The notes under the pieces: generated by a model | Seen by the model: the letters and a program-made list of their open reading frames with translations, nothing else | Databases searched by the model: none | Told to the model about the DNA's origin: nothing | In this document: positions 3,263-44,922 of the stretch, one piece after another | Layout: the number at the start of each line of letters is the position of its first letter | Position numbering within the stretch: position 1 is the first letter of the stretch | From: Pontibacter fetidus | Lineage (GTDB): Bacteria > Bacteroidota > Bacteroidia > Cytophagales > Hymenobacteraceae | Direction of reading: 5' to 3' | NCBI RefSeq assembly: GCF_010119545.1 | Contig: NZ_JAAEAA010000004.1 | Span: 1-64,000 of the forward strand | DNA: 64,000 nucleotides | Position numbers and translations under genes: made by a program

Positions 3263-3337
3263 TTTGAATTGCTAAATTGTTGGATTGTTGATTGTTGATC
3301 AGCTATTAACCCTGCTTATGATAGGGCACTGGTTGGT

Positions 3338-3440
3338 CATCCCCCTACCCCCTTCAAAGGGGGACACTCACCTTGTGTAATTCTAAACTATAGTTTTACG
3401 ATAGAAGAAAAAGTCCCCCTTTGAAGGGGGTAGGGGGATG
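3338..3440. repeat. Perfect 28-bp inverted repeat (REP-like doublet)
   Basis: Arms at 3338-3365 and 3413-3440 are exact reverse complements (core CCCCCTTTGAAGGGGG flanked by TAGGGGGATG). The 47-bp loop holds one AACTATAG copy. Each arm is itself a small hairpin. It lies between comB and gcvT, both on the - strand. Confidence 0.85.
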
Positions 3441-3467
3441 ATTTTACCAGGAGATCAACAATTAAAA

Positions 3468-28872: not shown

Positions 28873-28887
28873 TTTTAGGTTATAGAT

Positions 28888-28926
28888 AAAAAAGGCCGCT
28901 GCTATACTTTAGCAGTGGCCTTTTTT
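28888..28926 (+). terminator. Rho-independent terminator
   Basis: AAAAAAGGCCGCTGCTA pairs with TAGCAGTGGCCTTTTTT (one mismatch), 15 bp after the peptidase stop. Confidence 0.85.
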
Positions 28927-29130
28927 GTAATGTCATTTCAAACTATGTGAAAAATCTGTTTGCAACTATAGTTGGTGAAGACCTAGCAGCGTGCGCAGCT
29001 CCTGCTAGCGTCTAATACGGTTACTTCTTCGTCATCCCAAGCATTCTTGAGACGCGAGTCGAAAAGAGCCAGCGTAGCTGTGAGGGATCTTATATGGCCT
29101 ATAGTTTTGCATTTGTTATTTCGACGAAAG

Positions 29131-29402
29131 GAGAAATCTGTTTCGGTTATAGTTTCTGATTGATTCAACTTTAACCAAGCTATCCTTTCAAACTTCTTGA
29201 ATTCCTGGGAGCTTTACTTACCTATCGTTTCATCTCAAGCTTTGGTGCCCTCACGGCCGGGAGGCCCCGTCTTAGGGCATCGCGCTGCTGCCTTCTTGCT
29301 ATCCTCGTACCTCGGATTGGCTCATGCCACCGCAACAAGTCAAAGGCGCTCAACCCAAAGACTGCGATACTTCTACTATTGGCCGCTATCTATAGTTTGA
29401 AC
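29131..29402 (+). repeat. Dispersed structured element, copy A
   Basis: The conserved core 29204-29402 (CCTGGGAGCTTTACTTACCT start, CTATAGTTTGAAC end) matches 44473-44670 on the other strand with few changes. Weaker similarity extends back to GAGAAATCT at 29131. GC-rich hairpins are visible (GGCCGGGAGGCC). A 67-codon frame across it is not considered a gene. Confidence 0.8.
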
Positions 29403-29441
29403 CAGTAAGCTTCGAGATTGATCATGGCTATAGTTTCGTAG

Positions 29442-29461
29442 GGACAGGTCGCGACCTGTCC
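29442..29461. repeat. Perfect 20-bp palindrome, copy A
   Basis: GGACAGGTCGCGACCTGTCC; identical copy at 44414-44433. Confidence 0.9.
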
Positions 29462-29508
29462 GCTCACAGGCTTTAACTATAGAACTATAAAGTCAGCTAT
29501 AGCAGAAA

Positions 29509-29536
29509 GTCCCCCTTTGAAGGGGCAAGGGGATGA
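29509..29536 (+). repeat. REP-like CCCCCTTTGAAGGGG unit
   Basis: A diverged unit of the family at 3338-3440 (CAAGGGGATG instead of TAGGGGGATG). Confidence 0.6.
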
Positions 29537-29582
29537 CAACGGGAACTATAGAAATATACTGTTAACTATAGCAGTCCCAAAA

Positions 29583-29617
29583 AACTCCCCTCCTTAGACA
29601 AGGAGGGGCTGGGGTGA
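29583..29617 (+). repeat. CTCCCCTCC hairpin repeat
   Basis: CCCCTCCTT / AAGGAGGGG hairpin followed by CTGGGGTGA, related to the unit at 29755-29796. Confidence 0.6.
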
Positions 29618-29710
29618 TTCGATAAACGAACTATAGAATCATAGCCAGCGTCCTTGCCGTAGTTGTCCCTGCCGGGCCAGTTGCATCTGGAGATACAACA
29701 TCATAGTTAG

Positions 29711-29734
29711 TCACGAGTCTGGAGACTCGCGCCA
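29711..29734 (+). repeat. TCACGAG...CTCGCGCCA repeat
   Basis: A short hairpin unit sharing both ends with 46142-46165; the arms differ but stay complementary (GAGTC/GACTC here, GAGCG/CGCTC there). Confidence 0.6.
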
Positions 29735-29754
29735 GCGTATGAATAGCTAAAAAA

Positions 29755-29796
29755 ACCCTCTCCTGTTTTTAGGAGAGGGCTGGGGTGAGGTAAAAT
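29755..29796 (+). repeat. CCCTCTCC / GGAGAGGG hairpin repeat
   Basis: CCCTCTCCTGTTTTTAGGAG hairpin plus GCTGGGGTGAGGTAAAA tail; also at 217-257 and inverted at 44318-44363. Confidence 0.7.
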
Positions 29797-29836
29797 GCCA
29801 GCGATGGAACTACGTACGCTACCAGTTCTAAAAAAC

Positions 29837-44121: not shown

Positions 44122-44317
44122 TAACATTTCCGTATTGCCTGATGACGTACCAGATGTTGTAGCGTGCGCACTTGGTTGCTGGTATAAGACGCTCCGAGGT
44201 GACAAGCACGCTCGGAGGTCGTTGGGCACGGCTATAGTTTTTAACACACCCCTACCCCTCTCAAGAGGGAAATTTTGGCTATAGCTATAGTTGTGGGCTC
44301 TAGTTTTATAGTTGGTG

Positions 44318-44363
44318 TTTTCACCTCACCCCAGCCCTCTCCTAAAAACAGGAGAGGGAGTTT
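44318..44363 (-). repeat. CCCTCTCC / GGAGAGGG hairpin repeat, inverted
   Basis: The same unit as 29755-29796 in reverse orientation. Confidence 0.7.
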
Positions 44364-44413
44364 CTGCCTTTGCTATAGCTGATTTTATAGTTCTATAGGT
44401 ACAGACCAAGACC

Positions 44414-44433
44414 GGACAGGTCGCGACCTGTCC
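44414..44433. repeat. Perfect 20-bp palindrome, copy B
   Basis: Identical to 29442-29461; the flanking TCCCTACG.AACTATAG is also shared, in reverse. Confidence 0.9.
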
Positions 44434-44472
44434 CTACGGAACTATAGCTATGATAAAAGTCGAGGCGAACAA

Positions 44473-44745
44473 GTTCAAACTATAGATAGCGGTTAATAGT
44501 AGAAAGATATCAGTCTTTGGGTTGAGCGCCTTTGACTTGTTGCGGTGGCGTGAGCCAATCCGAGGCACGAGGATAGCAAGAAGGCAGCAGCGCGATGCCC
44601 GAAGACGGGGCCTCCCGGCCGTGAGGGCACCAAAGTGAATTTGAAACGATAGGTAAGTAAAGCTCCCAGGATTAAAAGTAATGTGAAAGAAAAGGCTTGG
44701 TTCGGATATTAAAGACTATAACTATAGGCTGCGATAGATTTCTCA
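44473..44745 (-). repeat. Dispersed structured element, copy B
   Basis: Core 44473-44670 is the reverse complement of 29204-29402 with scattered substitutions; weaker similarity continues to about 44745. Confidence 0.8.
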
Positions 44746-44922
44746 ACTACGCTCGAAATGACAAAGTAAGAATTACAGGACACATAAGATTCCTCGGCTG
44801 ACGCTCGGAATGACAAAAGAGAAGCTATAGCCCAGACACTAGCAGAAGTTGCTCGCGCTGCCAGGTCTTGCAACTATAAGCTAAACAGATTTCTCGCTAC
44901 ACTCGGAATGAGAATAGAGAGA

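Follow-up and report, generated by a model that had tools for sequence, protein, structure and literature searches.

Structured RNAs with pseudoknots are usually present in few copies per genome, and dispersed repeats tend to be simple hairpins. Correia, ERIC and other MITE-like repeats are non-coding, transcribable and dispersed, and carry no transposase of their own. These traits are partly supported by background in the excerpted report on BOX (PMC3049150). According to the same excerpts, the BOX elements of Streptococcus pneumoniae comprise about a hundred dispersed, modular, intergenic copies built of boxA, boxB and boxC modules, are commoner between convergent genes, are predicted to fold as RNA, and are regarded as non-autonomous elements whose current insertion is slow. 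REP and REPIN sequences, which go with RAYT genes, are high-copy extragenic palindromes of 20-40 bp, many of them tagged GTAG or CGTC (excerpts of PMC8049555 and PMC3733652). Orphan bacterial structured RNAs include Flavo-1, Acido-Lenti-1 and GUCCY-hairpin (excerpts of PMC2864571); the last stands without an Rfam entry in the table of that source. The repeat described here is dispersed in high copy number, as the former elements are, and has a predicted multi-branched, pseudoknotted fold.

The repeat pair and its RNA core

The DNA analyzed was a stretch of 64,000 nucleotides of Pontibacter fetidus (contig NZ_JAAEAA010000004.1, positions 1 to 64,000), hereafter the window. A sequence-only reading of the window had singled out two highly alike stretches (29204-29402 and 44473-44670) outside any gene, with nested hairpins, outward-fading similarity and neither a clear ORF nor obvious terminal repeats, and had suggested a non-autonomous mobile element or a small RNA family. 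The pair was confirmed by sensitive self-comparison, in which copy 1 and copy 2 aligned over about 430 bp with 82% identity (E = 4e-117) in opposite orientation. By longest-ORF calling, both lie in intergenic gaps (28873-29836 for copy 1 and 44172-44922 for copy 2). The two stretches cover part of a larger unit, in which an upstream palindrome accompanies a 127-nt core. No ORF accounts for the repeat, as ORFs of at least 80 aa cross the core in just 27 of the 117 copies of the genome (24 antisense, in all three frames, and 3 sense). A terminal inverted repeat was not recognized in the copies inspected, and the ends of the unit are gradual. The features of the two copies are as follows.

Copy 2
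44509..44635, plus strand: structured RNA core, 127 nt, subtype A; covariation-backed fold; 150.8 bits with covariance model R1 (this copy was in the model's training sequences)
44513..44521, plus strand: 5' strand of P1, pairs with 44598-44606; both-side changes in 4 of 9 pairs
44598..44606, plus strand: 3' strand of P1, partner of 44513-44521
44526..44529, plus strand: 5' strand of P2, GCGC, pairs with 44590-44593; nearly invariant, both-side change in 1 of 4 pairs
44546..44557, plus strand: P4 hairpin of the three-way junction; both-side changes in 3 of 4 pairs
44558..44574, plus strand: P5 hairpin of the three-way junction, containing a triloop and a GA/GA internal loop; both-side changes in 3 of 4 pairs and in the loop-closing pair
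44609..44627, plus strand: 3' H-type pseudoknot; stem 1, 44609-44612/44617-44620; stem 2, 44614-44616/44625-44627
44359..44734, plus strand: constant unit around the core, approximate ends, from the collinear coverage profile
44414..44433, no strand: palindrome GGACAGGTCGCGACCTGTCC, 5' of the core by about 95 bp; a related palindrome lies near most copies
44335..44358, no strand: terminator-like hairpin module CCCTCTCCT..AGGAGAGGG; 5' of a core in 50 of 50 occurrences
44256..44269, no strand: hairpin module CCCTCTCAAGAGGG; all 25 occurrences of the longer motif CCCTCTCAAGAGGGG are 5' of a core
44737..44818, plus strand: two 3' modules of type GATT.CTC..CTCGRAATGACAAA; 3' of a core on the same strand in 43 of 45 occurrences
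44834..44868, plus strand: 3' module of type AGACGCTAGCAGGAGCTGCGC..GCTAGGTCT; of 24 occurrences of the exact motif GCTAGCAGGAGCT, 21 are 3' of a core
Copy 1
29240..29366, minus strand: structured RNA core, 127 nt, subtype A; 144.6 bits with covariance model R1 (also in the training sequences)
29141..29516, minus strand: constant unit around the core, approximate ends, from self-comparison and coverage profile
29442..29461, no strand: palindrome GGACAGGTCGCGACCTGTCC, from sequence and self-comparison
29587..29608, no strand: terminator-like hairpin module, read from the sequence
29756..29779, no strand: outer terminator-like hairpin module CCCTCTCCT..AGGAGAGGG, from sequence and module counts
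28979..29013, minus strand: 3' module of the AGACGCTAGCAGGAGCTGCGC type, from sequence and module counts

Heavy covariation strongly supports a structured RNA of about 120 nt as the heart of the family, with a predicted long arm, three-way junction and 3' pseudoknot. In an unguided alignment (A1) of 48 copies from 17 genomes, taken out of 81 copies, RNAalifold without guidance returned a long arm with a three-way junction at its end and a hairpin after it; 13 of 27 pairs had both-side changes. A pseudoknot, in which the hairpin loop pairs with the GGG that comes after it, was added by hand; in the resulting structure 96.3% of cells were paired and 17 of 33 pairs had changed on both sides. The covariation score of this alignment was 0.268 versus 0.098 in shuffles, with 0 of 500 shuffles as high, and slid-partner controls reached only 36-46% pairing. 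Alignments fitted to the structure gave 97.1% pairing and both-side changes in 23 of 30 pairs for 83 further matches, and 98.4% pairing and both-side changes in 12 of 30 pairs for the 117 copies of P. fetidus; for the latter, 8 of 500 shuffles reached the number of further pair types, which is one of the five measures of covariation. At least 90% of the pairs are kept in 116 of these 117 copies. In a structure-free mutual-information scan of 247 copies and 295 columns, 13 of the 70 top column pairs were at least 80% standard, and all 13 lay inside the core, including a pseudoknot pair (103-114, standard in 95%); the sole flank pair among the 70 was 17% standard. The nested hairpins are thus real, and their stems carry compensatory changes, the lack of which would have told against the sequence-only reading.

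The 30 pairs of the 117 copies (3486 cells) contained 112 G-U pairs versus 7 A-C mismatches. One pair holds 74 of the 112, and without that pair the counts were 38 and at most 7. By this asymmetry, it is the element's plus strand that folds and acts as RNA. Single-sequence folding energy lent weak support, with z scores on the plus versus the minus strand of -2.29 versus -0.69 for copy 2 and -0.85 versus -1.38 for copy 1. At the level of structure, covariation in three alignments, the strand asymmetry and conservation across the genus strongly support the small-RNA-family reading. None of the 4227 models of Rfam 15 reached its gathering threshold against the family, which is a new structured RNA by that measure.

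A G-rich insertion of the GTGGGGGTAGGGGCCC type is found at the base of P1 in low-scoring copies at L038, L082:6061-6212, L087:6601-6734 and L186:3821-3952, which may represent a further subtype with a remodeled base. Three further features were considered and rejected. Visual inspection had suggested an outer closing stem formed by the 5' and 3' flanks, which the mutual-information scan did not support; a viral-type tRNA-like 3' end was discarded because ACCA is not conserved; and a protein-coding remnant was dropped because the 3' flanks of certain P. mucosus copies, which look like a short coding stretch, show changes that, judged by eye, ignore codons, and their frames break.

The composite unit and its distribution

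The core lies within a composite intergenic unit of about 360-750 bp, in which terminator-like hairpins stand in fixed order. The unit was profiled in the 104 of 117 copies with 900-bp flanks on both sides, with positions counted from the core start. Collinear sequence is common to more than half of the copies from about -180 to +220 and ends by about -580 (still 0.4%) and +420, in agreement with the outward fading first noticed in the window. The RNA core is clearly bounded, but the surrounding unit has no clear limits. A palindrome stands 5' of the core (a related one lies within 250 bp of the core in 95 of 113 copies), alternative terminator-like hairpins lie farther out, and other modules lie on the 3' side.

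In 679 kb of P. fetidus DNA chosen around copies, modules keep to one side of the core (for example 104/104, 50/50 and 89/90; weakest 21/24). In the control, 399 kb of P. fetidus DNA chosen outside copies, seven of eight module patterns had no occurrence, the GGACAGGTCGCGACCTGTCC-type palindrome and the CCCTCTCCT..AGGAGAGGG module among them, and CTCGRAATGACA, for the GATT.CTC..CTCGRAATGACAAA type, had two. Thus, the modules are mainly part of the unit. Stray modules with no nearby core are present in the window near 216-319 and 3336-3441. Decayed cores were sought in the same 399 kb, where the covariance model had 0 matches even with E values as high as 10 allowed.

An octamer that resembles HIP1 of cyanobacteria, AACTATAG with the core CTATAG, is strongly over-represented in the window, with 99 occurrences versus 2.6 expected, also within genes (50 of 98 CTATAG sites are inside ORFs). 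It was rejected as a part of the element because it is genome-wide and present also without elements (589 occurrences in the 399 kb of element-free DNA). The module spacer of P. mucosus and P. flavimaris loci (L087, L090, L168 and others) has a AAGTATAAAGTATA type in place of AACTATAG, as if the linker had undergone a genome-wide rewriting.

Gene context was counted in the 104 copies with both neighbors, leaving out 13 of 117 near stretch ends, and the units were shown to be intergenic and mostly 3' of genes. A tight link to a neighboring gene family was rejected: among 613 ORFs around P. fetidus copies, the largest cluster had at most 6 members, core-crossing ORFs aside. With no gene family beside many copies, the neighborhood gives little functional clue.

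The genome-wide search with the covariance model, in which 150 candidates were scored, found 117 copies in P. fetidus at E <= 0.001, one per 35 kb. A plain DNA search listed 40 places in this genome, and the best DNA match to copy 2 had 92% identity over 305 bp. Twelve contigs of the assembly end inside a copy or at most about 600 bp from one. The assembly therefore probably breaks at the repeats, and the true copy number may exceed 117; for annotation, both these contig ends and the spurious ORFs over the core call for caution. Two relatives have 129 and 116 copies, the latter being Pontibacter sp. Tf4.

The family is present in Pontibacter, three further genera of its family and Rufibacter, with low copy numbers elsewhere in Cytophagales; Pontibacter and Rufibacter both belong to Hymenobacteraceae. 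The genome set included 36 relatives of the same genus as P. fetidus. In a pattern scan, the matches listed included true copies in many Pontibacter species and in Rufibacter latericius, and many of the rows from other groups were chance matches. Of the 150 genomes searched at family level, 69 had matches, many of them at least 23, and 4 of 6 genera were represented. At least seven Pontibacter genomes among these 150 gave no match, and the element is thus dispensable for the genus. In a sample of the phylum, 3 of 395 genomes matched, P. fetidus among them, and with a broader model at order level, 35 of 390 genomes matched, from 9 of 129 genera. The counts listed outside the family are 1 to 3 per genome, with one match each in four genomes (G046, G685, G692 and G805). 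No description of the family in Pontibacter or its relatives was found in the open PMC literature.

In one low-copy relative (G550), a hairpin and a T run come after each of the two copies (L438 and L441), no more than about 30 nt away, as read by eye. L438 and the copy of G046 (L439), which come from different families, each adjoin a gene for a GH109-type oxidoreductase domain on opposite sides of the RNA, the RNA being downstream of the gene in one and upstream in the other. At L441 (832-2725), the RNA has a LexA-like repressor gene on one side and, on the other, a SMODS nucleotidyltransferase gene of the CD-NTase type, as in CBASS defense. The GH109-type neighborhood may be due to chance, and three distant loci are too few for a link.

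Inherited slots and exchanged sequences

The positions of copies were compared with those of Tf4, using 35 of its 116 copies (34 packed into 20 stretches and one at the copy-2 site). A slot was scored as shared when the same gene lay alongside, on the same side and the same strand. By this measure 24 of the 35 Tf4 copies occupy the same slot and orientation as a P. fetidus copy, 14 of them with both flanking genes. An earlier count with other settings also gave 24/35, its 24 remaining from 27 orthologue pairs after three second hits (T2-O85, T4-O115 and T33-O74) were subtracted. In 96 element-free Tf4 gaps taken as a control, one flank lay beside a P. fetidus copy in 4 and both flanks in 0. 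Two further Tf4 copies of the 35 share a site in flipped orientation only, which fits insertion or inversion better than conversion. In small samples, slot sharing was 13/19 with P. populi, isolate 903, P. vulgaris and P. burrus; it was 5/31 with P. mucosus, P. flavimaris, P. ruber, P. litorisediminis and P. chinhatensis, and 0/4 with two loci of Rufibacter latericius and two (L224 and L226) of another genus of the family.

The sequences in shared slots were no closer than those of random pairs. Core identity between P. fetidus and Tf4 was 0.833 at shared slots versus 0.816 for random pairs (permutation p 0.30), flank identity equaled that of random pairs (p 0.25), and subtypes agreed at 12 of 24 shared slots versus 11.6 expected. 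The copy in the orthologous slot was the best match in 0 of 23 pairs, one of the 24 having no full flank. Of the 35 Tf4 copies, 34 by flank and 32 by core had their nearest neighbor within Tf4 itself, versus 8 expected. The best flank identity between P. fetidus copies was 0.87, none being near-identical, and subtypes B and C also occur in other Pontibacter genomes. Saturation could explain the random-level flank identity at shared slots but leaves the within-genome similarity and the subtype swaps unexplained. The combination of species-specific flanks with trans-species core subtypes requires exchange between slots. Collectively, for this one species pair, these data show slots that have been inherited and core subtypes and flanks that have been exchanged among the slots of one genome, and such replacement in inherited slots amounts to concerted evolution.

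The reading we prefer, with a probability of roughly 0.55, is that of a new, high-copy structured RNA in a composite unit, with inherited slots, exchanged sequences and probable maintenance by the host. The RNA, about 120 nt long, folds from the plus strand of the element, as covariation and the G-U/A-C asymmetry show. Ectopic gene conversion between copies would be the simplest and most likely route of exchange, and exchange among slots would keep the copies within one genome alike. All but one of the 117 copies have an intact fold and the 399 kb contained no decayed cores, which argues for either selection or constant refreshing. With moderate confidence, the most likely job would be that of a transcribed, protein-bound non-coding RNA maintained by the host. 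Depth in species weighs against this reading: the exchange was seen in P. fetidus versus Tf4 only, in 35 of 116 Tf4 copies, and distant Pontibacter species share 5 of 31 slots.

More tentatively, and on balance doubtfully, the family may be a dispersed set of more than 100 RNA genes that evolve in concert as rRNA genes do, with a few trans-species subtypes moving between slots. It is proposed that such a family would exist because the cell needs the RNA, or its protein complex, at many places or in high dose. If the concerted evolution is true, the family offers a bacterial model for concerted evolution of dispersed loci. It would also be an orphan RNA class with more than 100 natural variants per genome, suited to structure probing and the search for a partner.

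Mobility, strand and relation to known systems

A host-maintained RNA is favored over a purely selfish, non-autonomous element (MITE or REPIN-like) that is mobilized in trans by RAYT/Y1 proteins and whose slots are hot spots emptied and refilled, a reading we hold unlikely. The number of elements follows that of RAYT genes across 28 Pontibacter genomes (Spearman 0.74, p 6e-6), a correlation that ignores kinship and uses the best 23 matches per genome. Three genomes without the element also have no RAYT match; however, neither do 2 of the 25 element-bearing genomes. P. fetidus has four Y1_Tnp (RAYT) matches over the cut-off, but no core lies within 700 bp on either side of any of the 4 genes, the nearest being several kb off, and these flanks hold other palindromes. 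At two of the loci (L398 and L400), the flanking palindromes end in GTGACGA/TCGTCAC and are similar to the CGTC-tagged repeats of PMC3733652, which, in the excerpts of that source, are not neighbors of RAYT genes. One RAYT gene (L401) is followed by a hairpin that resembles a 3' module of the unit, the unit is a composite of palindromes, and divergent gene pairs are avoided (5 of 104 copies). REPs, however, are simple palindromes, whereas the core is a multi-branched RNA with G-U asymmetry.

Relatives also differ in the presence of the element. Among loci homologous to the copy-1 site, a core was found at 4 of 26, and among those homologous to the copy-2 site, at 3 of 23, though some of these loci do not reach across the gap; at the copy-2 site, the same matched gene ends are about 820 bp apart in P. 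fetidus versus 30 bp in one relative (G008). Presence/absence polymorphism between relatives is therefore seen at both window sites and fits a selfish element, but the 24 of 35 shared slots would demand extreme hot spots, and near-identical copies were not found. The mobile-element half of the sequence-only reading thus holds in part: the repeat is dispersed, its core is often absent from related sites, and its number tracks that of RAYT genes, whereas most tested copies were inherited in place, the best P. fetidus flank pair stands at 0.87, and no transposase family is linked. Past dispersal must have occurred, and frequent mobility is not supported. Under the preferred reading, the family would have spread by a non-autonomous, MITE-like copying step and would now be largely immobile.

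A cis-acting 3'-UTR element, which would protect the mRNA 3' end of each upstream gene or act in attenuation, is improbable. The upstream gene is on the strand of the core in 78 of 104 copies, of which 40 are convergent pairs and so neutral, and tandem gene pairs are 38 sense versus 21 antisense. Terminator-like hairpins, however, separate the gene from the core, and in 26 of 104 copies the upstream gene is on the opposite strand.

Less credible still are hairpins that act as double-stranded DNA or cruciforms, in the nucleoid, in replication or as terminators, rather than as RNA. Several modules are palindromic, the units lie between genes, for the most part on their 3' side, and copy 1 folds no better from its plus strand than from its minus strand. 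In copy 2, however, folding is better on the plus strand, and a constraint on double-stranded DNA would be symmetric, whereas G-U pairs far outnumber A-C mismatches.

An RNA that guides a transposon nuclease or serves a reverse transcriptase as template (omegaRNA, or a group II intron or retron fragment) would suit a complex, pseudoknotted fold in a repeated element but can practically be dismissed, as P. fetidus has no match to RVT_1 or to the TnpB zinc ribbon (PF07282 only), RVT_1 number does not track element number (Spearman 0.01), the TnpB domain occurs in 3 of 44 genomes only, and Rfam gave no match. Elsewhere in the set, one genome (G002) has 14 RVT_1 matches, several identical in score at many places, and another (G022) has 20 TnpB zinc-ribbon matches.

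Compared by description with Correia, ERIC and other MITE-like repeats, the family differs in having no recognized terminal inverted repeats. It resembles the orphan RNAs excerpted from PMC2864571 in that its structure comes from comparison alone and no protein partner is known; unlike them, it has more than 100 copies per genome, and no Rfam 15 model reaches threshold. Like REP and REPIN sequences, it has a high copy number in a genome with RAYT genes, with correlated numbers, but its 127-nt, multi-branched core flanks none of the four RAYT genes of P. fetidus, and the family falls outside the REP class. The closest system in layout, by description, is BOX, with which the family shares about a hundred scattered, modular copies between genes, a preference for convergent gene pairs, a predicted RNA fold, slow present-day insertion and a probable non-autonomous nature; unlike BOX, the family has one fixed core with a covariation-backed three-way junction and pseudoknot, and undergoes apparent concerted evolution at conserved slots. 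A complex fold kept in nearly every copy of a genome while the copies seem to swap sequence between fixed positions is an unusual combination among these systems.
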